From the NCBI RefSeq assembly GCF_002845275.2, contig NZ_CP088149.1:4646501-4710500 (forward strand): a stretch of 64,000 nt of DNA. Reading direction: 5' to 3'. The translations under genes and the position numbers were made by a program. The notes under the pieces are model-generated. The model saw nothing but the letters and a program-made list of their open reading frames with translations. It was not told where the DNA came from and searched no databases. Below are positions 31,718-39,907 of this stretch, piece by piece (the first letter of the stretch is position 1; each line of letters begins with the position of its first letter). This DNA is from Pseudomonas sp. S06B 330 (GTDB lineage Bacteria; Pseudomonadota; Gammaproteobacteria; Pseudomonadales; Pseudomonadaceae).

Positions 31718-32053
31718 TTATCGCTGTCGGGTGAAGTACTCAGCGTTTACCTGGTACTCGTGGAAGGTCTGGTCGACGCTGTTCCACACATACAGCCAGC
31801 CATCACGCAGCTGACGCAGGGTGTAGCTGCGGGTCTGCAGCGGGGGCTGTTTGCTCGACCAGCCGGCGGGAAGCGGATTCGGTCCTTGGCTACTGCCTTT
31901 GCTTAGCGGTGATTCGTCCAGCGCATAACGCACCGGGAAAATCGCCACCTCGGCCTGTCTGAAGGCGCATTGGCCCCTGCCCATCGGGGCGTTGGTGAAT
32001 TCCTGGTAGAGCCGGGCCTGGTTCAGTTCGGCTTCTGTCGCGGGCTTGTTCAT
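31718..32053 (-). pseudogene. VasX N-terminal-domain fragment (type VI effector remnant)
   Basis: 111 residues resembling only the N-terminal domain of VasX-like type VI secretion effectors: FRQAEVAIFPVRYALDE, then SYTLRQLRDGWLYVWNSVDQTFHEYQV. Full-length relatives run to 800-1100 residues with C-terminal membrane segments; here the frame ends right after this domain. No type VI core, VgrG, adaptor or immunity gene is nearby. It could be a stand-alone domain, but truncation is the simpler reading. The start at 32053 (MNKPATEAELNQ) follows ACGTGTGATGAAC context; the frame open to 32125 adds a non-conserved tail. Confidence 0.65.
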
Positions 32054-32445
32054 CACACGTCCTTGTTCACGTCGAGGTGCAGGCAAGCGTTGTCCATGTG
32101 CTGGATACGCAGCGCTGGTGCCCAAAGCGTGCTTGAGCCAAGGACAACACCCGGAAACGCTACCAAGCGCGACAAATAATTGATGTCAGACGCTTCCGAA
32201 AATACATCCGTATTTGCAGACTGTTGGTTGATGAGTCACAAAAAGTTCGTAAGGCGCGCCCGCTCCCACCACGAAGCTGGTGTTGCAAATGCACCGAATT
32301 TCCCAAGCGACGTGCATTACGCAAATATATCGGGACCACCGGCAAATTAGCGCTATAAAATTTCGAACAATTCCTATTTTTAAGCATTTCTATCAATTTT
32401 TCCGCAAGGCTTGCCATCTTTAACCCCACTGGTTAAGTTGAAGCC
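32054..32445. other. Gene-free, AT-richer stretch before leuA
   Basis: Composition drops well below the surrounding GC level, especially 32160-32440. No believable gene. It contains the dyad TTAACC-N5-GGTTAA (32420-32436) just before the leader ORF, and presumably the leuA promoter, although no clear -35/-10 pair was found. Confidence 0.5.
32420..32436. promoter_or_regulatory. Inverted repeat upstream of the leuA leader
   Basis: TTAACC and GGTTAA, six perfect bases each side of a 5-nt spacer, centred 18 nt before the ATG of the leader ORF. It is an operator candidate for leuA; the protein that would bind is unknown. Confidence 0.35.
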
Positions 32446-32601: not shown

Positions 32602-34275
32602 ATGACCATGCTCAAAGACCCTTCGAAAAAATACAGTGCCTTCGCTACCGTCAACTTGCCTGACCGTACCTGGCCATCGAAGACCATCACCCAGGCGCCA
32701 ATCTGGTGCAGTTCTGACCTGCGTGATGGCAACCAGTCGTTGATCGAGCCAATGGATGCAGGGAAAAAGCTGCGTTTCTGGAAGACCCTGGTCAGCGTTG
32801 GTGTGAAAGAAATCGAAGCCTCCTTCCCCTCGGCTTCGCAAACCGATTTCGATTTCGTCCGCACCCTGATCGAAGACGGCCACATTCCTGACGACACCAC
32901 CATCCAGGTGCTGACCCAGGCCCGTGAAGACTTGATCGCCCGTACTTTCGAGTCCCTGCGCGGCGCGAAAAAGGCCATCGTCCACCTGTACAACGCCACC
33001 AGCCCGTCGTTTCGCCGCATTGTCTTCAACCAGGACAAGCAAGGCGTAAAAGACATCGCGGTGAACGCCGCCAAGCTGTTCGTCAAATACGCCGCTCAGC
33101 AGCCAGAAACCCAGTGGACGTTCCAGTACTCACCTGAAACCTTCAGCGCCACTGAACTGGAGTTCGCCAAAGAAGTCTGTGACGCGGTGATCGAGGTGTG
33201 GAACCCGACCCCGGACAACAAAATCATCCTCAACCTGCCGGCCACCGTCGAGGTGTCGACGCCGAACATCTACGCCGACCAGATTGAATGGTTCGGGCGC
33301 AATATTTCGCGCCGTGACAGCGTGATTATCAGCCTGCACACCCACAACGATCGTGGCACTGGCGTGGCCGCCACCGAGCTGGGCCTGATGGCCGGCGCCG
33401 ACCGCGTCGAAGGCTGCCTGTTCGGCAACGGCGAGCGTACCGGTAACGTCGACTTGGTCACCCTGGCGCTGAACCTCTACACCCAGGGCGTTAACCCTGA
33501 GTTGGACTTCTCCGACATCGATGGCGTGCGCAAGGTAGTTGAGGAGTGCAACCAGATTCCGGTACACCCACGTCACCCGTACGTTGGCGACCTGGTTCAC
33601 ACTGCCTTCTCCGGCTCGCACCAGGACGCTATCCGCAAGGGCTTCACCCAGCAGAAAGAAGATGCCAAGTGGGAAGTGCCATACCTGCCGATCGACCCGG
33701 CCGACATTGGCCGCAGCTACGAGGCGGTGATCCGCGTCAACAGCCAGTCGGGCAAAGGCGGTATCACCTACCTGCTCGAACAGGAATACGGCATCAGCTT
33801 GCCGCGCCGCATGCAGATCGAGTTCAGCCAGGTGGTACAAGGTGAAACCGACCGTTTGGGCCTGGAGATGACTGCCCAGCAGATCTACAACCTGTTGCAC
33901 CGCGAGTACTTGCAGGCCAACGCCCCGTACGCGCTGGTCAGCCATCGCCTGCAGGAAGAGAACGGCAACAGCAAGGTTGAAGTGGAAGTCTCCAGCGAAG
34001 GCGAGACCACCCTGCACTGGCGGGGCAAGGGCAATGGCGCCCTCGAAGCCCTGGTGGCCGGCCTGCCGGTTGCCGTGGAGATCATGGACTACAACGAGCA
34101 CGCCATCGGCGCTGGCACCAACGCCAAAGCGGCGGCCTACATCGAGCTGCGTGTTGCCGGTGGTCGTCCGGTGCATGGTGTGGGTATCGATGAAAACATC
34201 ACCACCGCCAGCTTCAAGGCGCTGTTCAGTGCGCTGAACCGCTCCTTGAGCCAGCAGGCAGCCAAAGCGGCCTGA
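32602..34275 (+). CDS. leuA: 2-isopropylmalate synthase (LeuA, type II)
   Basis: Condenses acetyl-CoA with 2-ketoisovalerate, the first committed step to leucine. The 557 residues match the type II (about 556-residue) enzyme. The TIM-barrel domain begins with [20 protein letters not shown], and the metal and substrate residues lie in [19 protein letters not shown] and [13 protein letters not shown]-terminal LeuA dimer/regulatory domain (about 430-557), the site of leucine feedback, ends [23 protein letters not shown] precedes the start; ATG 32608 is an alternative two codons in. Confidence 0.97.
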
Positions 34276-34301: not shown

Positions 34302-34340
34302 AAATGCCCGCCTCCCAACGGAGGCGGGCATTTTCGTTTG
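34302..34340 (+). terminator. Rho-independent terminator of leuA
   Basis: AAATGCCCGCCTCC (34302-34315) and GGAGGCGGGCATTT (34320-34333) form a perfect 14-bp stem with the loop CAAC, followed by TTCGTTTG. Confidence 0.9.
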
Positions 34341-34503
34341 TCCGCAGAAACTGCCATCAATTCGCTTGGCATGGCCGGTATACTGCCCCCATGCGTCACC
34401 GTTACTCGCATCGTCCCATGGAAGAAGACCGATGTGGCTGCGCTCCCTTGGCTTCTGATCTGCACACACTGTACTCAAGTCATACACCTAGAATGGACAC
34501 TCG

Positions 34504-35643
34504 ATGAGCCACTACCTTGAACGCGCACTGAGCAGCCTGCGCACCATCGGCATCAACCTGCTTCGCCCCGTCCAGGACGCTCCGGTCCTGGTGTTGCTGG
34601 ATCGCGTAGCGCAGTACGACAGCGGCAAGGTCACCTCCATCGCCGCCGTGTTGCAGCAATCCACTGCCTTCAACAGCATGGTTCGCGAGCAAATTGAAGG
34701 CATGGACATCTCCACCCGCTTTATGGACATCACCCTGCGCTTTACCTCAATCCGTGAAGACGCTGCGGCCATGGCCGGCTGGATGGACGACGGGCGCCTG
34801 GATAGCATGGAAAAGCTCAAGCAGGCCTGGATGAACGTTCGCCGCGGATCGATCCCCAGTCGCTTCAACGACATTCGCGAAAACTACCTGCAGGTATGCA
34901 AGGCGGCCAACGACCAGATCAGCCGCGAGACGGTGATCTTGGAGTCTTATATGGACTTTCGCATGGCCATCAAAGCTGCCGAGATCGAGGCCCAGCAGGT
35001 ACTGGTCATTGCTGGCCAGGCCCTGGAACAGCGCACTGCAGAGCTGAGCAAAGCAAACCAGCAAGTCACCGCTGCCGAGTCGGCGGAACCGGTCCAGCGC
35101 GCTGCCCTTGAGTTGCGCCGCGACGAAGCCGTGCGAGCCCTGCAGGACGAAGACAAGCGCTACCAGATCGTCAAGGACATCGCCGATGACTTGAAGGTGG
35201 GCTACAACACCGCCGAAATGGTCTTCGCCCGGATCAATCAGGTGCACGTGGTCAAGGAGCGCCAATACCAGCGCATGGTGTCGTTCTTCTCCACCAATGA
35301 AGTGGTGCTGACCGGGCTTGCCGTATCCTTCACCAGCAACAGTGGCCTGGCCGAAGCCACCCATACCCTCAATGCAACCACCGACGGCATCAGCAAGGGC
35401 CTGGAAGCGCTGGGAAGCACCGGCAATCAGCAACTCGAAGCGGCCGTAAAAGCCAGCTACGGTTCGACCATCAACGTTGATTCGGTACGCGCGCTGGCCG
35501 AGGCCACACTGTCGTTCCAGACCGACATGAACAGCCTGACCGAAACGTACCGGACAGAATCGAGCAATGCCTCCCGCGCCATCGCCGAGGCCGTCGAGGA
35601 CGCCAAGCGCACGTTTGCTGCATTACTTAGCAAAGCCGCTTGA
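34504..35643 (+). CDS. Unrecognised helical protein, first gene of a three-gene operon
   Basis: 379 residues, no signal peptide and no membrane segment. Almost entirely helical: an N-terminal part (about 1-120; LERALSSLRTIGINLLRPVQ), a long coiled coil at about 150-235 (EIEAQQVLVIAGQALEQRTA and following), then a Ser/Thr-rich region and a final amphipathic helix ending AKRTFAALLSKAA. It faintly recalls TelA-like or PspA-like cytosolic coiled-coil proteins, but no diagnostic motif was recognised and I do not assign it. Its stop overlaps the start of the next gene (TGATG). It is bounded by the leuA terminator upstream and inserted between genes normally adjacent in related genomes. Confidence 0.85.
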   Translation: MSHYLERALSSLRTIGINLLRPVQDAPVLVLLDRVAQYDSGKVTSIAAVLQQSTAFNSMVREQIEGMDISTRFMDITLRFTSIREDAAAMAGWMDDGRLDSMEKLKQAWMNVRRGSIPSRFNDIRENYLQVCKAANDQISRETVILESYMDFRMAIKAAEIEAQQVLVIAGQALEQRTAELSKANQQVTAAESAEPVQRAALELRRDEAVRALQDEDKRYQIVKDIADDLKVGYNTAEMVFARINQVHVVKERQYQRMVSFFSTNEVVLTGLAVSFTSNSGLAEATHTLNATTDGISKGLEALGSTGNQQLEAAVKASYGSTINVDSVRALAEATLSFQTDMNSLTETYRTESSNASRAIAEAVEDAKRTFAALLSKAA

Positions 35644-37082
35644 TGAGCGCTATTACACTCTCCGAACAGCTCGGAGCGATGGCGCTCGTCGATGAACTGC
35701 GCCACCAGCAAATGCAGGTCCAGGAACACCTGAACCTGCCAAAGCGCCGCGGGGAAGTAGCGGCGCGTATTCGTGACTATTACCAGCGCCACAACATCGC
35801 TTTCGATGAGGCGTTGATCGAGCAAGGCGTGCGCGAGTTCTTCGCCCGCCGCCTGGTCTTCGAGGCGCCTGTGCTGAACTGGCGCCAACGGCTGCTGAGC
35901 AAAACGTCAATGGCGCGCAGCCAGCTGTACAAACTGACCCTTGCGATCATCGCGGCGGCGCTGGTCACCCAGTGCACCCGTATCGTGCATGACAGCAGCA
36001 TCACCGTCGATATAGAGAATAGCGCCCATGACCTGCGACGCCACGACGATCGCCTGCGTAGCGAAATCCAGCGCCAGCACAACAAGCTCAAGCAGTGGCA
36101 GGACCAACTACTGGCGCAACCCGATGTCGCCGTCAGCCGTATTCTCGAGCGAGTCGAGCAGACATTGCCGCCACTGGATCAAACCGTTGCCAGTGATCTG
36201 CCGCAGTTCGTTCACAAAGCCAACAGGGATAACGTCAAGGCCCTGATCGAAAAGCGCGAGGCACAACTCAAGCAGGTCAGCGCTGCACTGCGCTCAAACA
36301 CTGACGGCTTCGCAACCGTCGCGGGCATCTACGAGCAGCGCGACGAGCTCGCACGGCTATTGGCCATGCCGACCTATCAGGACGGCATCAAGCCGTTCGC
36401 CAAACTCAAGGAATTGGCCACCGCTGCCGACCAGCACCTGCTGCACGTCAAAGATAAGGACACACTCAAAGCGGCCAGCCGCCAGGTCAGCGAACTGGAT
36501 TATCAAATCCAGCAGAGCGCCTACTGGCTTGAGCAGATGACCTTGCGCGATCAGTTGTTGCAGCGCCTCAACGCAATGCCCTTGGCCGCTGGCGAGCATG
36601 CGCAATTGCAAGCATTGCTAGCACATGCCAATAAGAGCCTGGACACCCAGAACCTCAGCCAGACCCGCACTCAACTCCAGCACCTGAAGCGGTTACTCGA
36701 CTTTGCCGCCGTAGCGCTGACCCTTCAGGTCGTAGACCGCAGTGGGATCAAGTCCGGTGTCGAGCGTTGCTACGATGCAGCAGGCTGTAACCGCGGCGAA
36801 GTCAGCGACAAGGGCAAAAGTTGGTTCCTGGTGGTCGAGGCCACCGATCCGGGTGGCATCAGGGCAGAAGTGCCGGTCACCAGCGTCGAAACCGGCGAGC
36901 AACGCTGGACCCGCCTTTTCGCTGTGCGCGTCAGCCAGGCCGAGTACCTCAAGGTCAAGCAGGACAAGCTCGACGACGGCCATGTTGATGAACGGATGAT
37001 GGCCAGCAAGGCTGCCAATTCGCTGAGCCTGCGTTTCAACCAGCGAGCCGCGAGTACTCCCGACATGATCATGGACTGGTGA
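35643..37082 (+). CDS. Membrane-anchored coiled-coil protein (possibly DUF6384-like), second operon gene
   Basis: 479 residues. The N-terminal cytosolic part (1-95; MALVDELRHQQMQVQEHLNL) is followed by one membrane span at about 101-115 (KLTLAIIAAALVTQC) and then a long helical, coiled-coil region to about 365. A small C-terminal domain (about 370-479) includes a close cysteine pair (VERCYDAAGCNRG) and a beta-rich SWFLVVEATDPGGIRAEVPV stretch. From memory this resembles proteins labelled DUF6384; unverified. The ATG at 35643 is coupled to the stop of the first gene; a TTG one codon earlier is also possible. Confidence 0.85.
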   Translation: MSAITLSEQLGAMALVDELRHQQMQVQEHLNLPKRRGEVAARIRDYYQRHNIAFDEALIEQGVREFFARRLVFEAPVLNWRQRLLSKTSMARSQLYKLTLAIIAAALVTQCTRIVHDSSITVDIENSAHDLRRHDDRLRSEIQRQHNKLKQWQDQLLAQPDVAVSRILERVEQTLPPLDQTVASDLPQFVHKANRDNVKALIEKREAQLKQVSAALRSNTDGFATVAGIYEQRDELARLLAMPTYQDGIKPFAKLKELATAADQHLLHVKDKDTLKAASRQVSELDYQIQQSAYWLEQMTLRDQLLQRLNAMPLAAGEHAQLQALLAHANKSLDTQNLSQTRTQLQHLKRLLDFAAVALTLQVVDRSGIKSGVERCYDAAGCNRGEVSDKGKSWFLVVEATDPGGIRAEVPVTSVETGEQRWTRLFAVRVSQAEYLKVKQDKLDDGHVDERMMASKAANSLSLRFNQRAASTPDMIMDW

Positions 37083-37086
37083 ACAC

Positions 37087-38430
37087 ATGACCCCCACTAC
37101 CCTCACCAGTACCGTGGCGCAGAATGCCCGTAACAGCGAGGCATTGCTACGTAGCGCCGAGCAACGGCTGACTGCCCTGAGCGATCAGGAGGCGCGCCTG
37201 GAACAGGATATCCTCACGCGCCTGAGCAACATTGCCACTCTCAAGCTCGAGCATCGACCGGCCCTCGACCAGGATACCCTGCTGCAACTACAGGCACGCC
37301 GGGATGCTGAAGCCCAACTGCGCGCGGAACTGGCCCGGATCGAAACGGACATCGCCAGCTCGCTGGCCAACCAGCAATCGTTGCGCACGCGTATCGCAAG
37401 CGTCGACCGCCAGGTCAACGATCAACTTGCACGCCAACCCGCCTGGTGCGAACTGGGCGAGCAATTGCTGGCCGCACAACAGGCCAATGGCGAAGAGATC
37501 ACCGGCTACAACGAGATCCGCCAGGAGTGTTTAGACAAGCTGCCGACATACCGTGCCAACCCGATCTACGACTACTTGCTCAAGCGCGACTACGGCACCG
37601 CCCAGTATCGCTACAACCGCTTGCACCGCTGGCTGGACAACACGCTAGCCAAGCGCGTGAACTTTCAGGGCAATCGCAGCACCGAACAGATGCTGCGAAC
37701 CATGCAGGCCCGCAATGAAGAGCTGCAAGGCGAACGCCTGGCCCTAATTGCCGCATTACAGGCCGATAGCGACCAACGCCTGGCCCAGGCCCGAACGGCT
37801 GCAGGCATGGACCCTCTGACAAGCGAAGACGCAGCGCTGAACGATCACATCGTCGCCGCCAAAGTTCGGGCCAACGAGCAGCACCAGCAACTGGCCGATT
37901 TTGCCAGCAAACAGGATCCGTACTACCTGCGCATCCGCCAGAACATCACCGAACGCCTGCAGGCGCAGACCCTTGAACAGTTGATGCTCGAGGTGCAGAA
38001 GACCCCAGACAGCAACGACGACCGGATCGCCGCCCAGCTCAAGAACTTGCACCCACGCCTGCATGACGTGCAGGCCCAACTACCAGGCCTGCGCGACCAA
38101 CATGAACACGCCTTGGGTGACTACGAACGGGCCAAGGAACTGGAACGGGCGCTGCGCACCGACTACTACCGCGACAGCGATTACAGCTACCACACCCAAC
38201 TGAGTTTCGAGCGTCTGCTGGCCGACTATATGGCCCGTGACCTCAGCCTGCACTCACTGGAAACCCTGCTACAAAGTGGCCGACGTCTAGTGCCACGCAG
38301 TTCGTCCTCCAGCGACTCATCGTCGAGCAGTTGGTCGAGTTCCGGTTCCAGCAGCTCAAGCTCCAGCACCGGCTTCTCTACTTCCGGCAGCAGCGGCGGT
38401 GGTAGCTTCAGCACCAGCGACAGTTTCTGA
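37087..38430 (+). CDS. Coiled-coil protein with Ser/Gly-rich tail, third operon gene
   Basis: 447 residues, four nucleotides after the previous stop. Residues 1-110 and 205-360 are predicted coiled coil, rich in Gln, Glu, Arg and Leu; the middle (about 120-200) is aromatic and more globular (YDYLLKRDYGTAQYRYNRLH). The last about 50 residues are almost pure Ser and Gly (WSSSGSSSSSSSTGFSTSGS) ending in phenylalanine. Such low-complexity tails also end TPM-domain and LemA-associated proteins, but the rest is unlike them. No signal peptide or membrane span. Function is not known; the operon suggests one complex with the membrane-anchored partner. Confidence 0.85.
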   Translation: MTPTTLTSTVAQNARNSEALLRSAEQRLTALSDQEARLEQDILTRLSNIATLKLEHRPALDQDTLLQLQARRDAEAQLRAELARIETDIASSLANQQSLRTRIASVDRQVNDQLARQPAWCELGEQLLAAQQANGEEITGYNEIRQECLDKLPTYRANPIYDYLLKRDYGTAQYRYNRLHRWLDNTLAKRVNFQGNRSTEQMLRTMQARNEELQGERLALIAALQADSDQRLAQARTAAGMDPLTSEDAALNDHIVAAKVRANEQHQQLADFASKQDPYYLRIRQNITERLQAQTLEQLMLEVQKTPDSNDDRIAAQLKNLHPRLHDVQAQLPGLRDQHEHALGDYERAKELERALRTDYYRDSDYSYHTQLSFERLLADYMARDLSLHSLETLLQSGRRLVPRSSSSSDSSSSSWSSSGSSSSSSSTGFSTSGSSGGGSFSTSDSF

Positions 38431-38435
38431 GTGGC

Positions 38436-38467
38436 GAAAAAAAACGGTGCGCCGACCAAGCGCACCG
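38436..38467 (-). terminator. Rho-independent terminator of zwf-pgl-eda
   Basis: On the minus strand CGGTGCGC and GCGCACCG (38445-38452 and 38460-38467) form an 8-bp stem followed by a run of eight T. It lies just past the eda stop and immediately after the end of the converging three-gene operon. Confidence 0.88.
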
Positions 38468-38501
38468 TAAAGCCGTGTAGCACACAACGATTCAGTTAAA
38501 T

Positions 38502-39176
38502 TCAGTCCAGCAGTGCCAATGCCTCAGCGCTGCAATCACTGATCCGCGACCACTCGCGATGCTTGATCCAGCCACTGTCGAGCATCCAGGTGCCGCCTAC
38601 GCACATGACATTAGGCAGTGCCATGTAGCTACGCACGTTGCTCGGGTTGACTCCACCTGTTGGGCAGAAACGCACATCGCCAAATGGCCCGCCGAAGGCC
38701 TTGATGGCTGCCACACCGCCACTGATTTCCGCGGGGAACAGCTTGAAGCGACGGTAGCCAAGGGCGTAGCCCATCATCAGTTCCGAGGGTGTGCTGATTC
38801 CCGGCAGCAACGGCAACTCGCTTTGCACGCCCGCCTCAAGAATGTCCGGGGTGATGCCTGGAGTCACCACAAACTGTGCACCGGCTGCTTCCACGGCGGC
38901 GAACATCTTGCGATCCAGTACGGTGCCAGCACCGACGCACAGCTCGGGCCGCTGCTCACGTAGCACCTGGATGGCCTTCAAGCCATGCTGTGAGCGCAGG
39001 GTCACTTCCAGGGTTTTGATACCACCGGCAGCCAAGGCGTCGGCCAGGGGCAGGATGTCTTCTTCGCGGGCGATGGTGATCACCGGCAGAATACGCGCCT
39101 GGGTGCAGATCTGATCGATCCGGGCAACTTTGTCGGCCATGGAAACTCCCGGCTGTTTCAGTTCATGCGTGGTCAT
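38502..39176 (-). CDS. eda: KDPG aldolase (Eda)
   Basis: Splits 2-keto-3-deoxy-6-phosphogluconate into pyruvate and glyceraldehyde-3-phosphate, the last Entner-Doudoroff step. 224 residues in a TIM barrel. The Schiff-base lysine is in RRFKLFPAEISGG; the catalytic glutamate region ITIAREEDILPLADAL, GAGTVLD and PGISTPSELMMGY are also in place. The start at 39176 has AAGGAT upstream and matches the P. putida protein; 39203 would overlap pgl. Last gene of the zwf-pgl-eda operon. Confidence 0.96.
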   Translation of the reverse strand: MTTHELKQPGVSMADKVARIDQICTQARILPVITIAREEDILPLADALAAGGIKTLEVTLRSQHGLKAIQVLREQRPELCVGAGTVLDRKMFAAVEAAGAQFVVTPGITPDILEAGVQSELPLLPGISTPSELMMGYALGYRRFKLFPAEISGGVAAIKAFGGPFGDVRFCPTGGVNPSNVRSYMALPNVMCVGGTWMLDSGWIKHREWSRISDCSAEALALLD

Positions 39177-39193
39177 AGCGGCGGATCCTTGGC

Positions 39194-39907
39194 TCATGGG
39201 CACCAGTAAATATCCAGGGGGTCTTGTAAAAAGGCACGAATCGGCATTTGGGCCAGATCGGCACCCGCCAGCGCGGCGCGCAGGGTAGCGAGTTTGCCCG
39301 GGCCTTGCACAGACAAGGCGGTGAACGCGGCGCGGGTAAGCAAGGCACGGGTCATGCTCAGGCGCTGATGAGGCACCGCTGGCGCCAGCATCGGCAAGCA
39401 GCGGCGCGGGCTCTGTGGATCAAGGCCTTCGCTGAGGTTCGGGCTATTGGGGAACAGCGAGGCCGTGTGCCCGTCATCGCCCATGCCCAAGACCAGTACA
39501 TCGATGCCCGGCAGCTCGGCCAGGGCTTGATCGGCTTCAAGTGCAGCGGCTTCAAGGCTGGCGGCAGCGCGGTACAGGCCAAGGAACCTCGCCTTGGCGG
39601 CATTGCCGGTCAACAGATGACGCTTGAGCAAACCGGCATTACTGTCAGCATGCTCGACCGGCACCCAGCGCTCGTCGGCCAAGGTCACCAGTACTCTCGA
39701 CCAGTCCAGCGGCTGCTGGATCAGCGCCTGAAAAAACGCCACCGGGCTGCGCCCGCCAGAGACCACCAAGACGGCCTGGCCTTTCTGCGCTATGGCTGCA
39801 TTCAAACGCCCCGCTACATCGTTGGCCAAGCCTTCGGCGAGCGTTTGGGCAGTGTTGAAGTCGTGTGCCGTCACGTTAGCCGGCAGTTGCAATTCAGATA
39901 TCGCCAT
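39194..39907 (-). CDS. pgl: 6-phosphogluconolactonase (Pgl)
   Basis: Hydrolyses 6-phosphogluconolactone to 6-phosphogluconate. The 237 residues fit the DevB/SOL family, with [15 protein letters not shown] and [20 protein letters not shown] forming the phosphate and active-site loops and [16 protein letters not shown] as the family signature. GGGAGGT precedes the start at 39907. It overlaps the end of zwf by 14 nt and is followed by eda after 17 nt, so the three genes form one tight operon. Confidence 0.95.

Follow-up and report, generated by a model that had tools for sequence, protein, structure and literature searches.

Three adjacent genes, here called A, B and C, lie between leuA and eda in a 64,000-nucleotide stretch of Pseudomonas sp. 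S06B 330 (contig NZ_CP088149.1, positions 4,646,501 to 4,710,500; the window). Strict co-occurrence, purifying selection and a modular organisation mark them as one module, a status that we regard as solid on this sequence evidence; its function was inferred. Tentatively, the three products are read as a single accessory assembly anchored in the inner membrane and concerned with protection or repair of the envelope under stress.

Co-occurrence and inheritance of the three genes

In 199 Pseudomonas genomes (the source genome included), A was found in 17, DUF6384, the family of B, in 18 and C in 18, with all three in the same 17. The two additional B and C matches were stop-containing fragments (degraded copies, G069 and G037). 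Each of the three genes was found in the same 2 of 299 phylum-wide genomes, one of them the source genome. Co-occurrence, which the original prediction had put forward as a check, was thus seen in both sets. Scanning of GTDB species genomes with an A profile confirmed 248 relatives, and the best 80 of the 248 were kept. These 80 genome loci, 12 loci from plasmids or a phage and 4 viral contigs made up 96 loci, all found through A. All three genes were detected by profile in 92 of the 96, fragments counted, and the other four hold two.

The 80 genome loci came from Pseudomonas, Massilia and relatives, Enterobacterales, Gilliamella, Chromatiales, Desulfobulbales and Alphaproteobacteria. The module ranges over Gamma-, Beta- and Alphaproteobacteria, Desulfobulbales, megaplasmids and one jumbo phage. 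Most loci have the gene order A-B-C, and five from Enterobacterales have A-C-B; some Pseudomonas and Massilia loci are rearranged, with extra B and C copies.

A, B and C are all under purifying selection. Of the three, A had the lowest ratio of nonsynonymous to synonymous substitution (0.05-0.07), followed by C (0.14-0.17) and B (0.21-0.25); leuA gave 0.03-0.05 and eda 0.10-0.12. A and C were compared over 371 and 404 aligned codons, with the C tail left out.

The module was located between the leuA side and the eda side in 9 of the 16 other Pseudomonas carriers and elsewhere in 7. Thirty eda loci, the best of 59 genomes, were examined. leuA directly adjoins eda, roughly 90-225 bp apart, in three of the closest genomes (eda 86-88% identical), and a fourth close genome (G015) has a 653-aa gene there instead (L196:6915-8876), so leuA-eda is a variable site. 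By eye, the 653-aa gene looks like a methyl-accepting chemotaxis or sensor protein. Synonymous divergence between the window and three related species was 0.54-0.82 for A, B and C and 0.42-0.66 for leuA and eda. As the values for the block are similar to or slightly above those for its flanks, the block was probably inherited with them in these species. Its GC content is also that of the flanks. The original prediction of an accessory insertion, for which a search for empty sites had been suggested, is supported by presence in 17 of 199 Pseudomonas and by the three empty sites, with the qualification that the insertion, judged by divergence and GC content, is old.

Protein architecture and the matched domain and tail

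Non-redundant sets (90% threshold, with limits on length) comprised 57 of the 96 A, 83 of the 110 B and 82 of the 100 C sequences. Most short B forms are therefore missing from the topology and end counts of the 83 B. Alignments comprised 67 of the 83 B and 56 of the 82 C, each with the window's own protein added. Nearly all B without the terminal Trp and the tailless C were left out of them, so conservation of the last residues in the alignments is biased upward, and the fair figures are 66/83 (B) and 65/82 (C).

B is a full member of DUF6384 (PF19911; E 2e-33, 116 bits against a gathering cut-off of 25), and the family was matched by 68/68 aligned B proteins. DUF6384 is a family of undescribed function. 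Its Pfam entry, as seen, makes no mention of partners A and C, and the B of the window adds a long helical stalk. B is predicted to be a single-span inner-membrane protein with its N terminus inside: the N side of the span was more positive in 80 of the 83 non-redundant sequences, and the span itself was above threshold in 66. The AlphaFold2 (AF2) model of B had a mean predicted local distance difference test score (pLDDT) of 89.7, lower (56-82) over residues 1-90. The first part of the helical stretch is the least conserved region, with gaps in about 30-50% of the 68 aligned relatives. The terminal Trp was found in 66/83. The single span had been foreseen in the original prediction and stands; the C-terminal Cys pair, also claimed there, is lineage-specific and not a general feature, as 48/83 B have no Cys. 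Structure searches with the B model gave no match for the C-domain, which was searched only within the whole of B.

The coiled-coil protein C matched no Pfam or NCBIfam family above cut-off. A central stretch around residues 141-200 is better conserved. Its last 50 residues have a median of 58% Ser+Gly (lowest 2%) in the 82 non-redundant C, 65 of which end in [FYI][SRTK][TS][STGN][DGNE][SGRA][FLIV], for example FSTSDSF or FRTGGGF. No span was predicted in 72/82, and the remaining 10 have one window above the span threshold.

A is a soluble, all-helical protein and the best conserved of the three. Its AF2 model (pLDDT 76.8, predicted template-modelling score 0.67) is helical throughout, with two very long helices (residues 117-190 and 196-277), a low-confidence part (277-323) and then a third long helix. 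No Kyte-Doolittle window reached 1.6 in any of the 57 non-redundant A, so no transmembrane span is predicted, and amphipathic heads are possible. The window's A had no Pfam or NCBIfam family above cut-off. Alignments of 58 A and 57 C proteins gave scattered weak family matches, mostly to helical or coiled-coil families. Profile searches of known structures with the A, B and C alignments gave no convincing relative; the lists for B and C consisted of coiled-coil proteins (best E 1.4e-5 and 3.7e-6). One membrane partner with two helical partners, as originally proposed, agrees with these results.

Presence of the DUF6384 C-domain in B was matched by presence of the tail in C. Of 98 B/C pairs within loci, 81 had both and 12 had neither; 5 had the domain without the tail, and none had the tail without the domain. 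Agreement in 93/98 pairs corresponds to a Fisher p of 8e-12, a value that ignores relatedness, and the count includes C fragments of 104-135 aa and a loose tail definition (motif or >40% Ser+Gly). The class lacking both came from at least three groups: Massilia and relatives, part of the P. putida group, and the P. baetica type, in which C is a fragment only. In the five exceptions, three B end in Phe and not Trp, one C is a fragment and one C has a frameshifted-looking end. Short B forms (111-154 aa) retain the N-domain. Those in Pseudomonas and in L112 also retain the hydrophobic segment, and four of 111-126 aa (L108-L111) are without it; it is therefore the C-domain, not the span, that pairs with the tail. 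This pattern suggests a conserved core (A, the B N-domain and the C body) and an add-on (the B stalk and C-domain with the C tail), and it provides a sharp and cheap handle on which parts work together.

Two Massilia loci (L110 and L111) have a full A-B-C set followed by a second B/C pair, in which B is a 111-aa N-domain-only form with a W-rich, amphipathic-looking end and C is tailless, with AWGSG near its end.

Layout, signals and surroundings

Coordinates are listed in the table. A, B and C are real plus-strand open reading frames (ORFs), packed with a 1-nt overlap between A and B (TGATG) and a gap of 4 nt between B and C, as first described. TTG 35640, the mechanically assigned start of B, is probably not the true one; ATG 35643 is preferred because it gives the overlap and aligns with relatives. 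The two terminators that had been said to bracket the block were both recovered as hairpins. The automatic pattern scan returned no sigma-70 promoter, and its plus-strand list did not include the leuA terminator. Two elements 5' of A, the start region GGACACTCGATG and a TATACT box, are common to the window, P. donghuensis, P. rubra and P. wadenswilerensis. Their conservation at leuA-eda in these three relatives is consistent with A-B-C being driven by its own promoter and, with the terminators, agrees with the self-contained operon of the original prediction.

Table. Features of the A-B-C block and its flanks (positions in the window)
Feature	Position	Strand	Basis or remark
leuA	32602-34275	+	flank of block; Pfam family match
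leuA intrinsic terminator hairpin	34306..34329	+	folds at -24.1 kcal/mol
TATACT, possible -10 box of the A-B-C operon	34379..34384	+	inferred; common to window and three relatives
Gene A	34504..35643	+	379 aa; ORF list
Gene B	35643..37082	+	479 aa; start ATG 35643
B residues 1-95, predicted cytoplasmic N-domain, conserved	35643..35927	+	also in short B forms of 111-154 aa
B residues 98-116, predicted transmembrane segment	35934..35990	+	hydropathy
B residues 120-357, long helical stretch	36000..36713	+	AF2 model, alignment
B residues 359-479, beta-rich C-terminal part of DUF6384, predicted periplasmic	36717..37079	+	DKxDDG motif, terminal Trp
Gene C	37087..38430	+	447 aa; ORF list
C residues 399-447, Ser/Gly-rich tail ending GGGSFSTSDSF	38281..38427	+	composition, terminal motif
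eda terminator hairpin	38444..38468	-	folds at -17.9 kcal/mol; also in pattern-scan list
eda	38502-39203	-	flank of block; Pfam family match

Eleven plasmid records with A were found, each of 0.3-1.4 Mb. In all seven plasmids whose gene tables list neighbours, DUF6384 and a hypothetical protein directly follow A. In jumbo phage phiR1-37 the set is g190-g191-g192, with B ending in ITNW and C in SSSDSF. Phage and viral collections gave no carrier beyond phiR1-37 and four IMG/VR contigs in a search with few peptide patterns, which can miss relatives. A phage-integrase-like ORF (by eye) adjoins the module at L162:4950-5981, with a similar one in L164, so that the module there is probably part of the chromosomal flank of a prophage; all four contigs are read in this way.

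Several further observations concern the surroundings. On pMRCP2 (L039) and PA83 (L050), two megaplasmids related to each other, the module is about 5 kb from the type IV CRISPR gene csf2. On another related pair of megaplasmids, pMPPla107 (L043) and pBASL58 (L044), it is flanked by a dCTP deaminase and a StiP-domain cysteine protease, which we take to be Ter- or stress-associated; in L045 a dCTP deaminase is beside it. A protein with BON and LysM domains (by eye; L149:13515-14033 and four other loci) recurs in four Chromatiales-type genomes and one Desulfobulbus. A complete A-B-C set, with A 53% identical to that of the window, was found in L140 (PBTC01000043.1), from a metagenome-assembled genome titled Candidatus Saccharibacteria; this contig is probably mis-binned proteobacterial DNA. 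In the window, a 135-aa ORF on the minus strand (31718-32125) is located beside a lower-GC patch before leuA and may be a remnant; its product may resemble the N-terminal part of type VI secretion proteins of the VasX type.

Proposed function, alternatives and known systems

In the assembly proposed above, A, B and C would be subunits at the cytoplasmic face of the inner membrane. B would act as the anchor, with its N-domain binding A and/or the C body in the cytoplasm, and its span and variable-length helical stalk would extend into the periplasm, where the DUF6384 C-domain would sense or contact the envelope. C would form coiled-coil oligomers, and its disordered tail would end in a short docking peptide, needed only if B has the C-domain. 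A, as a bundle of long helices whose low-confidence 'head' would be amphipathic, would couple B and C and may bind membrane. The assembly would most likely serve to protect or repair the inner membrane or the envelope during stress, along the lines of TelA-XpaC or Psp systems, and would be an optional cassette for chromosomes, megaplasmids and one jumbo phage.

Several results weigh against this proposal. The B C-domain is predicted to be periplasmic and the C tail cytoplasmic; they would be on opposite sides of the membrane, and their co-variation then needs an indirect link or one topology is wrong. This co-variation is the most interesting point of the analysis. The searches made turned up no functional experiment on A, B or C, and the recurrent neighbour clusters included no conserved gene pointing to envelope stress. 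Local profile-profile comparison of A with an alignment of 23 TelA proteins was not significant (E 0.19-0.25), and its score (17.2) was below the mean of shuffled controls (18.2). A structure search of BFVD with A gave no match at E 0.001, and named rows other than TelA were mostly tape-measure, SMC-like and similar long-helix proteins.

A more elaborate version, which we consider rather doubtful, treats A-B-C as an undescribed two-layer envelope machine. The periplasm-facing B stalk and DUF6384 C-domain would be plugged onto the core, and the C Ser/Gly tail with its FSTSDSF/FRTGGGF-type peptide would be the matching docking or condensate-forming element. Short-B/tailless-C forms, with or without span, would be the core running alone, and the jumbo phage would carry the whole machine to shield or remodel the envelope of the infected cell.

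It is unlikely that A-B-C is an anti-phage or inter-element conflict system, sensing infection at the membrane and acting via A or C, with the phiR1-37 copy serving counter-defence or superinfection exclusion. Patchy presence (17/199 Pseudomonas, megaplasmids, a jumbo phage), repeated and rearranged B/C copies beside one A, the degraded copies, the leuA-eda site being empty or holding another gene in relatives, and the faster evolution of B and C would all fit it. However, A, B and C had no PADLOC 2.0 match at E<=1, a result that did not bear out the defence role first suggested, and no effector enzyme or NTPase was recognised. The recurrent neighbour clusters listed (named by eye) included no conserved defence-type gene, and A is constrained to a degree between that of leuA and that of eda. 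A PHROGs search with the window's A, B and C gave only rows at E 0.018 or worse.

A three-component pore or membrane-remodelling machine, with A as an alpha-helical pore-forming protein of the ClyA superfold, appears improbable. ClyA-superfamily alpha-pore-forming toxins (XaxA, AhlB, MakA, ClyA) were most of the top VIA-align matches of the A model and rank high in Foldseek too, and some members of the family are three-component. Unlike them, A has no sequence-family match or membrane-strength segment, and B combines a predicted span with a beta domain. No ClyA-type family (HBL, HlyE, Xax and similar) was matched by the window's A in Pfam or NCBIfam at E<=1 or was among the matches listed for 58 A relatives (in one case 25 of 38 families). 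A cytoskeleton-like positional or segregation scaffold, anchored by B and serving large replicons and nucleoid-like compartments, is likewise improbable, as 9 of 16 other Pseudomonas carriers have the module at leuA-eda, a chromosomal site, and the SMC matches are typical of any coiled coil.

By sequence, the set matched no known system in the libraries searched, the searches made gave no described function, and the block is not in most Pseudomonas. Public names of A such as 'merozoite surface protein 3b' and 'cell surface protein' are uninformative, misleading for a predicted cytoplasmic bacterial protein, and obscure the module. Conservation of the set extends from Pseudomonas through purple sulfur bacteria, bee-gut symbionts and rhizobial megaplasmids to a jumbo phage; with no description found, this breadth makes a general accessory role at the envelope a good candidate function.

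Among known systems, the predicted fold of A weakly resembles TelA and ClyA-type helical bundles, with membership in neither established. PF05816 (TelA) was not among the Pfam matches of the window's A at E<=1 and gave no match in the whole source genome at E<=0.001. The global profile score of A against TelA (14.5) exceeded those of all 30 block-shuffled controls (highest 11.7) and that of reversed TelA (6.6), and four TelA/tellurite-resistance phage proteins were in the top 50 of the BFVD search (ranks 6, 8, 15 and 37). A Listeria telA (lmo1967) mutant is more sensitive to nisin and tellurite, according to PMC12791056. In the TelA-XpaC system, TelA/YaaN (PF05816) is, like A, a soluble, all-helical protein of ~380 aa whose gene is beside one for a membrane protein (named by eye in loci L051-L053). 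Unlike TelA/YaaN, A has no Pfam or significant local profile match to TelA; B is convincingly DUF6384 alone, and no counterpart of C was seen. The family searches of the window's A, B and C gave no PspA match. Psp-type membrane-stress systems, compared here only for how they work, differ in that the A-B-C operon has no regulator; they too combine cytoplasmic helical proteins with an inner-membrane anchor.

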